From: Natronosalvus amylolyticus | Lineage (GTDB): Archaea > Halobacteriota > Halobacteria > Halobacteriales > Natrialbaceae | Length of the DNA: 64,000 nt | Direction: 5' to 3' | Assembly: GCF_024298845.1 (NCBI RefSeq) | Contig: NZ_CP101156.1 | Location: forward strand, 186,001-250,000 | In this document: piece after piece, positions 52,215 through 59,509 of the stretch | Numbering within the stretch: the stretch's first letter is position 1 | How the letters are laid out: every line of letters starts with the position of its first letter | Position numbers and translations under genes: made by a program | Notes under the pieces: model-generated | What the model was told of the DNA's origin: nothing | The model's database searches: none | Seen by the model: the letters and a program-made list of their open reading frames with translations, nothing else

Positions 52215-53567
52215 TCAATCTGAAACCGGTTGATCGGCTTCGAGCAACGATCCATCGGTTTTTACGTCGTCGTGGAGATGACAGGAAACCTGCCTACCCG
52301 CCCGTTCAGTGAGAGCTGGCGCGTCGCGTTCACAGACGGTCATGAACGACTCCTCGAGGATCTCGTTTGCGCCCTCGAGATTCCCCTGGGCGAGCTGATC
52401 GAACGCTTTATCGAGCGTCTCGTTGGCCGTCGTATCGGTCAACTCCGCCGGGAGGTCGTTCTCTCGCCGGAGCTGGCTAATGACGGTCTCTGCTGGCATG
52501 TCATCGACTGAAATGTCTCCATCGATTTCGTCCGTGTCGATTCCTTCCTCGACAGCAGCGGTTTCGGCAACTGAGTCGAGATTCAGCGTGCCATCTCGCA
52601 CACGCTGACGGAAGTGTAACACGTCACGCCAGACCGATTGGGAAAGCTCGAGCTCCTCGGGTGGGATCACCTCCGGACAGCGCGTGTGGAACCGACAGCC
52701 ACTTGGCGGGGCGCTGGGGTCAGGAACGTCACCCTTGAGTTCGACGCCAAGGCCCCGCTCACGTGGGTCAGGTGTCGGTATTGCAGAGAGCAGTGCTCTC
52801 GTGTACGGGTGCTGTGGATCGTTGAACAGCTCCTCGCTGTCTGCGACTTCGACGAACTCACCGAGATACATCACGGCTACCCGATCACAGATCTCTCGAA
52901 TAACACCGAGATTGTGACTGATGACGATGATCGTCAGGTTAAACGCCTCTTGCAGCTCTTTCATGAGCTGTAGGATCTCGGATTGGATCGACACGTCGAG
53001 TGCGGACACCGGTTCGTCAGCCACGATTACGTCCGGGTTGACCGCGAGCGCCCGTGCGAGGCCGATACGCTGTTTCTGGCCACCGGAGAATTCGTGTGGG
53101 TAACGGGCCATATCCGAGGCCGAGAGGCCGACGCGTTCGAGTAGATCGGCTACGATTGCCTCTCGCTTCTTCCGATCGCTCATTCCTTGCACGATCAACG
53201 GTTCGGCCACCGCATCACCGATACTCATCCGCGGGTCGAAACTCGAATCCGGATCCTGGAAGATCATCTGGACGTTCCGCCGGAACCGTTTGAGTTCGGT
53301 GCTATCGTATTCGGTGATGTCCTCACCCTTGTACCTGACCTGTCCGCCAGTGGGCTCTTCGAGCCGGATCATCGACGTTGCAGCGGTCGATTTTCCACAC
53401 CCGGATTCGCCGACGATACCGAACGTTTCGCCCTCGTGTATGTCGAAGCTAATCCCGTCAACTGCTTTGACGCGACCGACCTCACCGGAGAGCAATCCAC
53501 CGGAAAGTGGGTAATGTTTCTCGAGGTTTTCGATTTGCATGATCGGATCACTTCGTGACCAGCTCAT
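52215..53567 (-). CDS. dppF: Peptide ABC transporter ATPase DppF-like, with C-terminal insert
   Basis: A 450-aa ATPase driving peptide import. The ABC core (residues about 10-250) has Walker A GESGCGKST, signature FSGGQKQRIGLARAL and Walker B VIVADEPVSALD. The oligopeptide-ABC C-terminal (oligo_HPY) domain normally ends CxxxxRCP...C...CH within ~40 residues; here CRFHTRCPEV and the distal VCERDA...VSCHLHDD Cys are separated by ~110 extra residues that are acidic and partly helical. The four Cys are those that bind an Fe-S cluster in some DppD/F proteins. It starts within the stop of dppD (4-bp ATGA overlap), so translation is coupled. Confidence 0.9.
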   Translation of the reverse strand: MSWSRSDPIMQIENLEKHYPLSGGLLSGEVGRVKAVDGISFDIHEGETFGIVGESGCGKSTAATSMIRLEEPTGGQVRYKGEDITEYDSTELKRFRRNVQMIFQDPDSSFDPRMSIGDAVAEPLIVQGMSDRKKREAIVADLLERVGLSASDMARYPHEFSGGQKQRIGLARALAVNPDVIVADEPVSALDVSIQSEILQLMKELQEAFNLTIIVISHNLGVIREICDRVAVMYLGEFVEVADSEELFNDPQHPYTRALLSAIPTPDPRERGLGVELKGDVPDPSAPPSGCRFHTRCPEVIPPEELELSQSVWRDVLHFRQRVRDGTLNLDSVAETAAVEEGIDTDEIDGDISVDDMPAETVISQLRRENDLPAELTDTTANETLDKAFDQLAQGNLEGANEILEESFMTVCERDAPALTERAGRQVSCHLHDDVKTDGSLLEADQPVSD

Positions 53568-54664
53568 CGATCCTCACCTCCGACGCCCATCTGGTCGATA
53601 TCCAGTGCTGAAACCGTTGCATCGCTTTTCAAGACGATATCCGGATTGCCACCCGGTTCGAAGTGGATACAGGAAACGACGTGGTCCGCTGTGCCGGCCT
53701 CGTAGGTCGGCGGCTGTGGGCCTTCCAGACAGTCCTCGCGTGCGAAGACACAACGGCTTGCAAACCGACAGCCATCCGGTGGGTCGATCGGACTCGGCAG
53801 ACTTCCCGGAATACCGCCGAGATTCCCTTTGCTTGGGAGACACTCGAGCAAAGCTCTGGTGTACGGATGTGACGGTGTTTCGAAGATATCCATCACTGGT
53901 CCCCGCTCCATCACTTTTCCAGCATACATGACGACGACTCTATCTGCAACCTCGGCAACGACGCCGAGGTCGTGGGTGATGAACAGAATCGCCATATCCC
54001 GTTCTTCCTGTAGAGATTTGAGTAATTTGAGAATCTGGGCCTGAATCGTCACGTCGAGCGCGGTCGTCGGTTCGTCGGCGATCAACAGGTCCGGCTCGCA
54101 GGCCAGGGCGATTGCGATCATCACGCGCTGTTTCATTCCACCGGATAGCTGATGTGGGTAATCTCCCAGTCGGGCACTCGCTTCGGGAATCCCTACCTGG
54201 GTCAACAGCTCGATGGCCTTTTCATTGGCTTCCTTTTTGGTTACTTCCTGGTGAAGTTCAATCGCCTCGCGAAGTTGCCAGCCGATCGTGTAGACCGGAT
54301 TCAGTGCTCCCTGTGGGTTCTGGAAGATGTGACTTACGCGGCCACCACGAAGTGATCTGAGTTCTTCCTCGCTCATCTCAGTGACCTCCGCACCATCGAA
54401 CTCGATCGAACCCTCAGGAATGAACCCCGGTGGGCTCTTGAACAGCCGGGTTATCGATTCACTCGTCACTGTTTTGCCGGAGCCACTCTCACCCACGATG
54501 GCGACGGTCTCTCCAGACTGGACGTCGAACGAAACACTATCGACTGCTTTGACAACGCCCTCATCGGTTTCGAAGTACGTACAGAGATCCGTAACCGAAA
54601 GGAGCGAGTTGCTCGAGCGAGTCGATTCATCAGTACCGATCGTCTGTGAAGGCTGTTTGCTCAT
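53564..54664 (-). CDS. dppD: Peptide ABC transporter ATPase DppD-like
   Basis: A 366-aa ATPase, partner of DppF. The ABC core has Walker A GESGSGKT, signature [15 protein letters not shown] and Walker [13 protein letters not shown]. The C-terminal oligo_HPY domain carries [16 protein letters not shown] and VSCIH, so the four-Cys set is intact and compact, in contrast to DppF. The start (54662-54664) overlaps the dppC stop by 4 bp (ATGA). The N-terminal ~25 residues are a Ser/Thr-rich leader ahead of the fold. Confidence 0.92.
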
Positions 54665-55956
54665 TCTCCACCACCTTGTCGTGGATCCAGGGCGTCGCGG
54701 AGTGCGTCACCAAGGAAATTGAAGGCCAGAATTGTCATAAATAAGAACACGCCCGGAATCGTCGATATCCACCAGGCACGATCCAGGTCGCTCCGACCGT
54801 CGGCGATCGTTTCGCCCCAGGATGGGAGGCGTGGATCACCGAGTCCGAGGAACGCCAGCGCTGCTTCGGCGAGAATTAGTCCCGGAATAACGAGCGTCGC
54901 TGCCGTGATGACGCTGTTCGAGACGTTTGGTAGCAAGTGTCGACGGATGGTCCAGAGGCCTCCGGCCCCTGCGTTTTTCGCTGCCATGATGTACGCTTCT
55001 TCCCGACGCTGTAAGGCTTCTGAGCGGACGATACGAGCAATCCCACCCCATCCAAGTACGCCGAAGATGATGATCATCACGAACAGACTTCCACCGACCA
55101 GGTACACGACCAGCAGGTACAGGAAGAAGGTGGGGAACGTAATCTGGATGTCGACGTATCGGAACAGGATTTCGTCGACGTAGCCACCGAAATATGCTGC
55201 CGTAAGCCCAACTGTCGTGGCGATCAGGATCGTCAGGAACATCCCGATCAGGCCGACTTGCATACTAATCTCCATCCCGTAGACGATGGAGATGAGGATG
55301 TCTTTCCCTTGGTGTGTCGTTCCAAACGGATGCGCCCAGCTGCCGTGACACTCGCCACCGCTGACCGGGCCCACACATTGAATAGGAACTGTTTCTCGGA
55401 CGGACCCCCAGACGGGTGGCTGATAGGCCAGCACGGGTTCTACCTCTGGCGGGTCCATGAACCGCGGAACCGTCAGACCGATGGCGAAGATGATCGCCAG
55501 GTAGATCAGGCTAATTACAGCTGCTTTGTTCTTCTTGAACTCTCGCCAGTAGTAGGCGGTCATCCGCTGATTCTGATAGAGCGGAATCGCCACGTAGAAC
55601 ACCCCAACCAGCAAGGTCAGTGACCAGAGCCAGGTGACTCCCCCGATCTCTCCGATCAGCGGATACTCTGCGGGTCCTGCACCTGGAATGAATCCCGGTG
55701 TTTCGACCTGATACCTAGACGTATCGGTTACGAACGCGACCATCCGCTGGTAGGCTCCTTCACCGAATCGATTAAACAGATCGTTGAGAAGTGCCAGCAG
55801 GTACGTCCCCATGATCGCATACCAGGCGATGCGCGTCTTCGTAACGCCTCGAGCCGTCCCGTCGATTTCGTCCCAGTTGACGTCTTCGAAGGTAACGTTG
55901 TCTGCCTCCTTTCTGACGTTTGCGGATTGTGTTGTTGGATCTGTATCGACGGACAT
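54661..55956 (-). CDS. dppC: Peptide ABC transporter permease DppC-like
   Basis: A 431-aa permease. Two extra N-terminal hydrophobic segments (about 40-60 and 108-127) precede the usual first helix, which then leads to an external loop with paired Cys (IQCVG...GECHGSWAHPFGT) and the BPD_transp_1 core with EAA-loop (IMAAKNAGAGGLWTIRRHLLPN). The orphan permease at 28082 shares the loop and these extra segments. Its stop overlaps the dppD start (ATGA) and its start overlaps the dppB stop by one base (TAATG). Membrane half of the peptide importer. Confidence 0.92.
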   Translation of the reverse strand: MSVDTDPTTQSANVRKEADNVTFEDVNWDEIDGTARGVTKTRIAWYAIMGTYLLALLNDLFNRFGEGAYQRMVAFVTDTSRYQVETPGFIPGAGPAEYPLIGEIGGVTWLWSLTLLVGVFYVAIPLYQNQRMTAYYWREFKKNKAAVISLIYLAIIFAIGLTVPRFMDPPEVEPVLAYQPPVWGSVRETVPIQCVGPVSGGECHGSWAHPFGTTHQGKDILISIVYGMEISMQVGLIGMFLTILIATTVGLTAAYFGGYVDEILFRYVDIQITFPTFFLYLLVVYLVGGSLFVMIIIFGVLGWGGIARIVRSEALQRREEAYIMAAKNAGAGGLWTIRRHLLPNVSNSVITAATLVIPGLILAEAALAFLGLGDPRLPSWGETIADGRSDLDRAWWISTIPGVFLFMTILAFNFLGDALRDALDPRQGGGE

Positions 55957-56954
55957 TAGCGATCACCGTATTTGATTCGCGGATCGAGGATGACGTACGC
56001 GATGTCCTGGGCGAGATTCCCGATGATCGCCACGAACACCGGAACGAACACGGTACCGAACACCAGCGCCGTATCCTGGGACATAATCGCGTCGAAGGAG
56101 AGATAACCAAGCCCCGGTATGCCGAACACGACTTCGATGAGATAGGACCCCACGAAGACGATTCCGAGGATGTCTCCCACGAGAATCGTTGCAATTGGGA
56201 TCGAGGCGGGGCGGAAAATGTGTTTTGCGACGATTGTACGCTCGGACACACCTTTCGCTTTGGCAGTTTTGATGAAATCTGATTCGACGTACTCGAGCGC
56301 CTCCGCGCGAGTGTATCGCATCATACTGGCGACTGAGGCAGTCATCAAGACGAACATCGGGAGAATCAGCTGTTTGACGTTCTCCCAGCTGACGATCGCT
56401 CGGAGCGCCCACTCGCCATCTATCTTTGACGCCTGGGTATCAAATAGGAGGTCGACCCATCCTAACCACGTCCCGAAAATAACCAGCAAGATGATAGCGA
56501 ACCAGAAGTTCGGAATGGAGATGCCGAAGAAGGCGACGAACGTCGCAACGTAATCTCCGCGCGTGTATTGGTTCACTGCCGAGTACAGACCGATGACAAT
56601 GCCGATGATCGTCGATATAATGACGGCGGGGACGCCGTACATCATCGAGTATGGGATCGCACTGGCCAGCGCGTCGATCACCGGCTCCGATCGGGAGTCA
56701 GACCATCCCCAGTTGAAACTGAGCATGTTCTGCATGAAATCGATGTACTGGATGTGAAACGCCTGATCCATTCCTCGAGCGGCTTCCGCTGCCTGTCTGG
56801 CCTGTTCCGGGTCGCTCCCCGACTGAGCGGCCTGGAACTCGAGTTCCATAATCCTGGTGTCGGGCGTCAGGTACATCAGCACGAACGTGATTGTGAGGAC
56901 TACCATCGTCGCGACACCAGCCCAGACTAGTCGTTTAAATATATACCATTTCAT
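55956..56954 (-). CDS. dppB: Peptide ABC transporter permease DppB-like
   Basis: A 332-aa permease with the N-terminal DppB-type helix (MKWYIFKRLVWAGVATMVVL), a ~90-residue external segment and the BPD_transp_1 core with EAA-loop (FIKTAKAKGVSERTIVAKHIF) and a C-terminal YVILDPRIKYGDR (xDPRx end). The start is the ATG at 56952-56954, 83 bp downstream of the dppA stop. The operon order dppA-B-C-D-F is the standard one, unlike the orphan pair at 28-30 kb. Confidence 0.92.
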   Translation of the reverse strand: MKWYIFKRLVWAGVATMVVLTITFVLMYLTPDTRIMELEFQAAQSGSDPEQARQAAEAARGMDQAFHIQYIDFMQNMLSFNWGWSDSRSEPVIDALASAIPYSMMYGVPAVIISTIIGIVIGLYSAVNQYTRGDYVATFVAFFGISIPNFWFAIILLVIFGTWLGWVDLLFDTQASKIDGEWALRAIVSWENVKQLILPMFVLMTASVASMMRYTRAEALEYVESDFIKTAKAKGVSERTIVAKHIFRPASIPIATILVGDILGIVFVGSYLIEVVFGIPGLGYLSFDAIMSQDTALVFGTVFVPVFVAIIGNLAQDIAYVILDPRIKYGDR

Positions 56955-57037: not shown

Positions 57038-58897
57038 TTAGGCGTCGTAGCCGTAGTCGTCGCTGGTGTACTCTTCGAGGTAGTCCTGTGCCTGCGGTTT
57101 GTTGTAGGAGTCACCGACACCAAACTCCGTCACCTGGGAGTCGTCGTACCATTCGGACCACTCTGGCTGGAAGGTGTGGGTGTACTCTGCGAGGCCACGG
57201 AGGATGTTCTCGGTTATGTTTGCCTTGTCGATGGACATCGACAGCGCCTGACGGACCTCGCGAGTCTGGAGTTCTTCCCAACCGTTTGCACGCTGGTTGA
57301 ACGCAAGAATTCCCAGATACGGCTGTGGGATTTCGTAGACGTCGATCGAATCGTTGTCGACGAAGTCCTGATACCGGTCGGTCGGAATGCCGGCCGTCGT
57401 CAACTCGCCGCCCTCGAACGCTTGCAGTCGGGTCGATTGCTCCTCGATCACGCGGTAGGTGTACTGGTCGAAGTACGGTGCATCCGCCCACTCGCTGCCC
57501 ATCTCGTCGGCGTAGGCGTGCATGTAGTAATCGTCGTTGCGCACGGCGACGAACTCCGAGGAGCGGTCCCAGCGCTCGAACGTGTACGGTCCGAGGTTGC
57601 CGCTGTACTGGATCTCCTGCATCTCTTCGCTCTGTCGAAGCGCATCCGCGTCGGGTGCGTAGCTCTCGTAGAGCTCTTTCGGCGCACAGAACGCGCCCCA
57701 CATGACTGGCTCGAGCGGGAAGTCGGGGTTGACCGACGGCAGTTCGAGCTGGAACTCGAGGGTACCGGTTTCTTCGACGTTGATTCCCTCCCAGTCACCG
57801 CCCTGGGTCGAGGGACCGTTTTCTGCATCCCAGATATCTCCGCTCTGGTGGACTTCTTCGATCTGGAATACCCAGTCTTCGGCCGTCATCTGACCGTAGC
57901 CGTTGCCCCACTCGAGGTTGTCTCGAAGCGTACAGACGAACACCTGGCCGTCGCCGGTGTCTTCCATGTCGAGCCACAGCGGTTGGATGGTGTTCTCGGA
58001 GTCGACGGCGTACGCACCGTCGAGACAGAGACCGATTCGGTTCGCCGACGGCACGTCGTTCACTTCGGGGAAGTAAAGCGTCTCGGCGTCCGTACCGGAT
58101 GCCGCGATGTATTCGTCGGTATCGTCGGTTGCCGACCACGTCGTGGAATCCCAGTTGCCACCGAACACTTCGACTGGCCCTTCGATGTAATCTTGATAGC
58201 CGACGATATCGTCGGACATCGAGACGAAGTTCACCGGCACGTCCTCGCTCAGGATGCCGAAAATTTCCGCCATAATCTGCTGGCGCGCGTCCGGATCTGG
58301 CTCCTGGCGGAAGTCGCTGTACTTGGCGGCCATGTCCACGTCCGGGGCGTAGCCGTAGTAGTTCGTTCCCGACTGTTCGGTCCAGAAGGCGTCGGTCGCC
58401 GCGGGCGTACGCGGGTACGTGTTGAAGTTGATCCCGTACATCAGGTCCCACTGTTCGGGACTCTGGGTCTCATCGCGTGGGCCTGCGTTGAAGCCACCGG
58501 CCGACCACTCGGGTTCGCCGTCACCGATGTATTCGTTGGAGACGTACTGTCCGAGGAGCGTGTCGAAGGTGACACCGTTGATGCTCACCGAAAACCCGAG
58601 GTCCTCGAGCTCGTTAGCCATGACCTCTGCGGCGGTTTCTGTGGTGTCGGTACCCGTGGCGTACACGAGGTTCAGTTCGACCTGGCCATCTGGACCGAGG
58701 AAGTCACCACGGTCTTCGGCTTCGCCGTTCCCGCCGTTGCCACCGTTCCCGCCGTTGCCACCGTTCCCGCCGTTGCCACCGTTTCCGTCGTCGCTGTCGT
58801 CGCTGCTAAAACACCCAGCAAGTCCAGCAAGTCCGGCTGCACCGCCGGCTTTGATAATGTGTCGTCGTCGCGGATGATTGCCTCTTCTTTGCGGCAT
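57038..58897 (-). CDS. dppA: Peptide-binding lipoprotein DppA-like, circularly permuted
   Basis: A 619-aa solute-binding lipoprotein (Tat-like RRRHIIKAG leader, lipobox GLAGC with lipidated Cys29, then a GNGGNGG linker at about 38-58). The fold is SBP_bac_5 but the parts are in swapped order. Residues about 70-250 match the segment that follows the LLxEAGY junction in E. coli DppA (NYYGYAPDVD, QQIMAEIFGILSEDVPV). Residues about 270-619 match its N-terminal and middle parts (FVCTLRDNLEWGNG, MTAEDWVF, VRQALSMSIDKANI) and end at YNKPQAQDYLEEYTSDDYGY, the junction itself. It is the first gene of the dpp operon. Ligand presumed to be peptides. Confidence 0.88.
   Translation of the reverse strand: MPQRRGNHPRRRHIIKAGGAAGLAGLAGCFSSDDSDDGNGGNGGNGGNGGNGGNGGNGEAEDRGDFLGPDGQVELNLVYATGTDTTETAAEVMANELEDLGFSVSINGVTFDTLLGQYVSNEYIGDGEPEWSAGGFNAGPRDETQSPEQWDLMYGINFNTYPRTPAATDAFWTEQSGTNYYGYAPDVDMAAKYSDFRQEPDPDARQQIMAEIFGILSEDVPVNFVSMSDDIVGYQDYIEGPVEVFGGNWDSTTWSATDDTDEYIAASGTDAETLYFPEVNDVPSANRIGLCLDGAYAVDSENTIQPLWLDMEDTGDGQVFVCTLRDNLEWGNGYGQMTAEDWVFQIEEVHQSGDIWDAENGPSTQGGDWEGINVEETGTLEFQLELPSVNPDFPLEPVMWGAFCAPKELYESYAPDADALRQSEEMQEIQYSGNLGPYTFERWDRSSEFVAVRNDDYYMHAYADEMGSEWADAPYFDQYTYRVIEEQSTRLQAFEGGELTTAGIPTDRYQDFVDNDSIDVYEIPQPYLGILAFNQRANGWEELQTREVRQALSMSIDKANITENILRGLAEYTHTFQPEWSEWYDDSQVTEFGVGDSYNKPQAQDYLEEYTSDDYGYDA
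58726..58800 (-). repeat. 18-bp in-frame tandem repeat encoding the GNGGNG linker
   Basis: Alternating CCGCCGTTGCCACCGTTC units, period 18 bp, about four copies. They encode the flexible Gly-Asn linker of the binding protein; copy number is likely to vary. Confidence 0.85.
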
Positions 58898-58919
58898 AAA
58901 ATGGTCATTTCACCAAACC

Positions 58920-58933
58920 CATATATACTTTAT
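58920..58933 (-). promoter_or_regulatory. TATA box of the dpp operon
   Basis: ATAAAGTATATATG on the minus strand, 22 nt before the dppA ATG. This strong AT-rich box fits a leaderless start and should drive the whole operon. Confidence 0.6.
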
Positions 58934-58949
58934 GAACATCCTCTGGCTC

Positions 58950-59509
58950 GAGCATAATTCACCGTCTTTAACCTAAAAACGCAAAATTCTATCCTTTTGT
59001 GTTCAATAGTCGGCTATATCTTTGGATAATCTCTTATTTTGCTGTTTGCCTGTATCTTTGATGTTTGTTCATAGGGAATACAACCTTCAAGAATGATTGT
59101 TTGGACAACATGTATTGTGTGCTTATATTACTACTTAGGTATGCTTCCATCTAGTCAGGTAGTTTGTCATTAGCAGTTATCGCTTCCAGCCATTCTCGCT
59201 TTAACAGGCGGTATATCGTAGTTATTGCCGGTACTCAAATTCGAGGTCACAACTTTGATAGAACGATACACTCCATCACAATTGATATCAGGTTCTTCGT
59301 AAATTTAGACAAGTAGTTATTTTACAGACATTCCTTGTGTGGTGTCTTCGCCAATCCGGAACCGAAACCTTACTTACTTGATAACATGTCGTAGTAGCAG
59401 TAAACAGATTTATACATCCGCCGAGACAGCGTCTCGTGAGAGGTCGTGTGCCGTCTACTCCACACTCCACAGGCACCCTCAATTCGGTGTTGGTTACATC
59501 ACTATACCA
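58950..59509. other. AT-rich gene-free DNA beside the tRNA locus
   Basis: Roughly 550 bp without a supported gene. The first ~400 bp are clearly richer in A+T than the rest of the window (for example ATCTCTTATTTTGCTGTTTG). Short frames at 59288-59482 and 59339-59743 do not look like proteins. The composition suggests foreign or decayed DNA. Confidence 0.55.

Follow-up and report, generated by a model that had tools for sequence, protein, structure and literature searches.

A circularly permuted SBP_bac_5 substrate-binding protein in Natronosalvus amylolyticus and the probable recurrence of such permutations in its family

Introduction

Can the substrate-binding protein of an ABC importer carry the two blocks of its fold in swapped order while heading an otherwise ordinary operon? 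The question is raised by an open reading frame (ORF) at positions 57038-58897 (minus strand, 619 aa) of a 64,000-nucleotide stretch of the Natronosalvus amylolyticus genome, here called the window, where it leads a five-gene opp/dpp-type operon. A first-pass annotation, made without database searches, had claimed that the parts of an SBP_bac_5 protein lie here in rotated order. Natural circular permutations are usually viewed as rare, old, and known from distant relatives.

Results

The target (P0002), a circularly permuted family-5 (cluster C) substrate-binding protein by its profile and orthologue matches, begins with a signal peptide (58811-58897, minus strand, like every feature of the operon below) that bears a twin arginine, R11-R12, and a lipobox, LAGC with Cys29. 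Both features are invariant in orthologues and are marks of an archaeal lipoprotein, although lipidation itself is inferred and the Pfam TAT_signal match is weak (E 0.029, under the cut-off). Tat/lipobox export is shared with other haloarchaeal SBP_bac_5 members. Next comes a flexible glycine-asparagine linker, also rich in Asp (58715-58810), whose length differs among orthologues. It is followed by the canonical C-terminal block (residues 62-256; 58130-58714), a new short linker of about 5 residues joining the former C- and N-termini (58115-58129), and the canonical N-terminal block (residues 262-619; 57041-58114). The joining linker has a median of 7 residues in permuted ORFs (n=129, duplicate loci not removed), and dN/dS is 0.03 in both blocks of the target, indicating purifying selection. 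Two side observations concern this gene: the length and GGN-repeat number of the linker behind the lipobox differ between P0002 and a near-identical orthologue (L001), and a 593-aa frame runs antisense to the gene (57176-58957, plus strand), probably as a by-product of GC-rich codon usage.

The target scores 161.5 bits against the SBP_bac_5 profile PF00496 (curated cut-off, 32.4 bits), in two stretches, and in a genome profile search profile positions 287-360 fall upstream of positions 11-284. Forty canonical proteins were aligned, the alignment was divided at the junction into an N-part and a C-part, and each part served as a separate HMM. The C-part HMM gave a single match, to residues 72-256 (101 bits, E 4e-30), as did the N-part HMM, to residues 252-609 (246 bits). 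Both parts of the fold are present, but the N-part does not precede the C-part, and we therefore call the target a permuted variant rather than a plain SBP_bac_5 member. The order of N-part before C-part is a property of all solved members seen and not a stated family criterion; the 60 best-matching distinct sequences in the PDB all have it. When the target was rotated to start at residue 249, its score against the full-length canonical HMM rose from 120 to 156 bits, whereas 50 control versions with a shuffled C block reached at most 123 bits. DppA and a Halorussus orthologue (L018), both canonical, scored highest when left unrotated. The NCBIfam OppA model, which was built on canonical proteins, likewise matches a permuted relative (P0003) in the wrong order, with model positions 398-503 falling on residues 72-184. 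At the level of sequence, the target is a circularly permuted cluster C substrate-binding protein.

The strongest evidence for the permutation is that the same operon occurs with a canonical-order binding protein. Canonical orthologues match both blocks of the target, swapped, at 50-56% and 53-59% identity (E to 1e-136). In Halorussus L018, residues 65-424 correspond to target residues 262-618 (50%, E 7e-119) and residues 435-617 to 72-254 (53%, E 1e-58). Two closer canonical orthologues (L069/L071) are 55-59% identical to the target in both blocks, with residues 38-408 matching the N block (55%) and residues 410-603 the C block (58%). The same five-gene operon with a canonical-order protein is found in Halorussus halophilus (WP_192498497.1, 50-53% identity to the target) and Natrononativus (WP_255171731.1, 44% overall), while the permuted order recurs in orthologues from Natronosalvus (96%), a Haloferacaceae metagenome-assembled genome (about 73%), and Natribaculum (about 43%).

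Downstream of the target lie genes for a permease of the OppB/DppB type (55956-56954; PF00528, PF19300), a permease of the OppC/DppC type (54661-55956; PF00528, PF12911), an ATPase of the OppD/DppD type (53564-54664; PF00005, PF08352), and an ATPase of the OppF/DppF type (52215-53567; PF00005, PF08352), which are 60%, 58%, 61%, and 58% identical, respectively, to their counterparts in the canonical Halorussus operon. The last four genes of the operon overlap by a few bases. With two BPD_transp_1 permeases and two ATPases that carry oligo_HPY, this gene set is that of an Opp/Dpp-type ABC importer; peptide binding and import are inferred. Apart from the order of the binding protein, operons with a permuted orthologue and those with a canonical one are equivalent. 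The target resembles DppA, OppA, NikA, and AppA in having both blocks and these four partners and differs from them in its rotated block order.

The target ends exactly at the junction between the YNPEKAK helix and the following strand, aligned to DppA residue 369/370, after YDPEKAKALLKEAGLE. Its end, DYGYDA, and the start of its C block, DFLGPDGQVEL, fit together when compared with EYGYDSDGTLLGPDGEQVTL in canonical L069. The first-pass annotation had placed the new termini at a YNPEKAK-like junction and had assigned residues ~270-619 to the usual N-terminal and middle parts; both claims held, the latter through the N-part HMM and orthologue matches to residues 262-619, as did the rotated order itself, through the split HMMs, the canonical orthologues of the same operon, and the gain on rotation. 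Its assignment of residues ~70-250 to the usual C-terminal lobe held with one refinement: the first block is not a whole lobe but combines the latter half of the C-lobe with the final stretch of the chain, which lies in the N-lobe. On sequence evidence alone, neither outcome named as refuting it was encountered, be it an unpermuted structural superposition scoring as well as a permuted one or homologues that reveal the first lobe to be a separate domain with a second C-terminal lobe missing. The sequence and the canonical orthologues of the same operon confirm that the target has no second C-terminal block.

Judged by eye, YGINFNTYPRTP at residues ~151-165 takes the place of GDNGDP, the sequence surrounding D436 in DppA (peptide amino group), and the ligand may therefore be something other than an ordinary dipeptide. 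Canonical orthologues of the target have a similar replacement, again by eye.

Across 292 haloarchaeal genomes, the operon family is present in both orders. In a binding-protein tree built from sequences rearranged to canonical order, the permuted members form three clades (a, b, and c) among canonical ones. We also built a tree from the four partner genes of 43 operons, with no column of the trait in the data. It requires three changes of order, each imposed by supported branches, and a single change suffices on no bootstrap tree. Approximately unbiased (AU) tests reject a single clade uniting all permuted operons (p 8e-95) and likewise one uniting any two of the permuted clades (p 3e-7, 2e-12, and 8e-5). 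These changes were counted on unrooted trees, on which gain and loss are not separable. The cut sites also differ. The target's clade is cut after the YNPEKAK helix (site A, DppA 369, shared by clades a and b), clade c is cut before that helix, ~20 residues earlier (site B, DppA 349), and a further group, typified by L008, is cut at DppA 454 (site C).

One close pair in the operon family consists of permuted L135 and canonical L147, which are 72% and 69% identical in the swapped blocks, the blocks abutting at L147 residues 386|387. Their surroundings (L216/L217) contain eight syntenic genes at 71-83% identity, and the binding protein alone is reordered. Taken as part of the whole explanation, the permutation in the target clade very probably represents one event among several that occurred independently in the family; no cause has been established for its recurrence. 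The first-pass annotation had proposed asking whether all homologues share the order or only one clade, and the answer is stronger than expected: some are canonical, and the permuted forms appear to have arisen repeatedly. Separately, one canonical-order relative (L153:2717-4354, genome G006) is present as two ORFs with a break close to the junction, which is either a frameshift or a true split.

Within the N. amylolyticus genome itself, 5 of the 11 family-5 binding-protein genes found are permuted: the target, L008, L009, L011, and L012. The last three are cut near site A. L008 (L008:1420-3264, about 1318031-1319875 on contig C1) is cut at site C, with the last piece of the C-part at its N-terminus and its end after GYYLDW; it matches its canonical sister L154 at 57% (residues 148-609 to 62-525) and 54% (60-142 to 527-609). 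The same type of permutation is seen in L163-L165. Two other proteins considered for permutation, L013 and L014, were rejected because neither gained score on rotation.

Most of the haloarchaea examined have permuted forms, as do an unrelated archaeal family and Alphaproteobacteria. Of 53 haloarchaeal genomes, at least 34 gave a full-length collinear match to the permuted form, versus at least one of about 242 others. A large all-permuted clade unites haloarchaeal families with alphaproteobacterial proteins (WP_113156578.1, WP_273692309.1, WP_207415789.1, and WP_117397031.1), bacteria having been sampled through plasmids only. The plasmid-borne alphaproteobacterial permuted proteins L238, L239, L240, L241, and L243 have no N-terminal lipobox. 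The genes for L239 and L240 adjoin M28 peptidase genes.

Further cases come from archaeal family f15, outside Halobacteria. Here permuted L227-L229 are 83-88% identical in amino acid sequence to canonical L231 and L233 in the swapped blocks (L227/L228 versus L231, 85-86%), DNA identity is 78-80% where checked, and the canonical relatives belong to the same genus. This is a very recent permutation. Another f15 protein (L214:3730-5472, genome G450) is permuted and bears a PGF-CTERM anchor at its new C-terminus, and its genome also has a canonical paralogue (L282). A wide tree gives seven order changes for sites A and B, of which starred branches force at least five, plus a single change for site C; this was a quick tree, and its changes do not tell gain from loss. 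Scans of viral contigs found no homologue of the target and one distant canonical protein.

Discussion

Taken together, the data very probably describe a functional, naturally permuted cluster C binding protein of an Opp/Dpp-type importer whose family has undergone several independent permutations, with fold, binding, and transport inferred. The canonical blocks are swapped, the old ends bridged by a short linker, and the signal peptide kept in front. The folded protein would be the usual two-lobed Venus flytrap, capturing a peptide-like solute and passing it to the permease pair. That it is an ordinary importer subunit of this kind under purifying selection is likely, although there are no binding or transport data. 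All three cut sites lie inside what we take to be the C-lobe (domain III), with domain boundaries as in OppA and positions taken from the DppA alignment, so the new N-terminus with its lipobox would sit on the C-lobe. The chain ends, and hence the lipid anchor, are thereby predicted to be on the C-lobe rather than the N-lobe. The first-pass claim that the anchor moved to another face follows from the block mapping and is still an inference. Because AlphaFold, run on the target with an alignment of only four rows, returned a pLDDT of 29, fold and anchor position alike remain inferred.

Two routes of origin come into question: a tandem duplication with later in-frame deletion, and the relocation of a single segment. 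An origin by one of these routes is likely, and the data do not separate the two; permuted and canonical sisters have homologous signal peptides, which fits either a tandem duplication with deletions or a segment moved behind the signal. No duplicated N-C-N or C-N-C fused intermediate was present among about 280 classified ORFs. Four long ORFs considered as such intermediates (L060, L171, L173, and L181) look instead like upstream frame extensions.

The literature searched describes one natural permutation of an ABC binding protein, TpMglB-2 (Tp0684) of Treponema pallidum, the "Cluster Bc" protein, which is lipid anchored and is reported to bind its sugar normally (PMC4990184). It has the cluster B (type I) sugar-binding fold, whereas the target belongs to PF00496 and cluster C and so falls outside Cluster Bc; moreover, it represents one permuted family, with no multiple independent events in the sections bearing on it. 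It is the sole precedent that we found for a permuted binding protein, in a different cluster. The first-pass statement that no report of this permutation was known holds for cluster C in the literature searched. Most subscription journals were outside that scope, making this weak evidence, and the CIRPIN preprint contains no such case in the passages bearing on it. Saposin/swaposin and other natural permutations have been reviewed, with duplication as a candidate route (PMC3320104); unlike these, the haloarchaeal and f15 events are recent, in place, and repeated, and sister genes are still 69-86% identical.

A bolder reading is that chain ends on the C-lobe are a repeatedly selected trait, the shift of the tether from N-lobe to C-lobe altering docking or capture. 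The authors of the TpMglB-2 study likewise suggested anchoring as the reason for permutation (PMC4990184). The scoop motif of E. coli DppB enters the cleft between both DppA lobes (PMC12136057), so tether position could possibly matter, by inference. This reading would cover the haloarchaeal N-terminal lipid anchors and the one C-terminal PGF-CTERM anchor, in which the anchor-bearing end would also have moved to the C-lobe. We consider it unlikely. A move of the anchor cannot explain permutation in general, as permuted alphaproteobacterial relatives lack an N-terminal lipobox.

Two alternatives to independent permutation of the family's own genes are very unlikely. The first is a single ancient permutation behind all permuted forms, with the canonical relatives in the operon family being reversions. 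In its favor, change counts on unrooted trees cannot separate gain from loss, and one gain plus one reversal between clades a and b is conceivable because both share site A. Against it stand the differing cut residues of clade c and the L008 group, the AU tests, the canonical order of the PDB sequences, and the recent pair L227/L228 versus L231, which has canonical relatives all around. The second sees the target as a distantly related permuted paralogue that displaced the operon's original binding protein through recombination or transfer. The genome does have other permuted families (L009, L011, and L012), but the target shares 50-59% identity with canonical proteins of its operon family and only about 22% with L009, L135 and L147 occupy the same syntenic place, and the binding-protein and partner-gene trees broadly agree. 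In single genomes, an already permuted gene could still have been transferred within the family. An artefact (misassembly, frameshift, or a separate N-terminal domain on a truncated canonical protein) is all but excluded: long spurious frames do arise in GC-rich genomes, but the same order recurs in separately assembled genomes and genera, each with one C block and one N block, residues at the cut are complementary, dN/dS is low, and the orthologues already refute it.

Repeated, independent permutation thus remains the preferred reading. On this reading, permutation has struck a single family of transporter subunits again and again, at three cut sites. Certain permuted genes share their neighborhood with canonical sisters at 69-72% identity, and others are 85-86% identical to a canonical relative from the same genus. 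A large permuted subfamily has gone unlabelled in haloarchaea and Alphaproteobacteria, and annotation based on order misses half of these proteins. Permuted binding proteins of this kind are natural scaffolds for permuted biosensors, and such close permuted/canonical pairs make the route of origin (duplication, fission-fusion, or segment relocation) and the cost of permutation directly testable.
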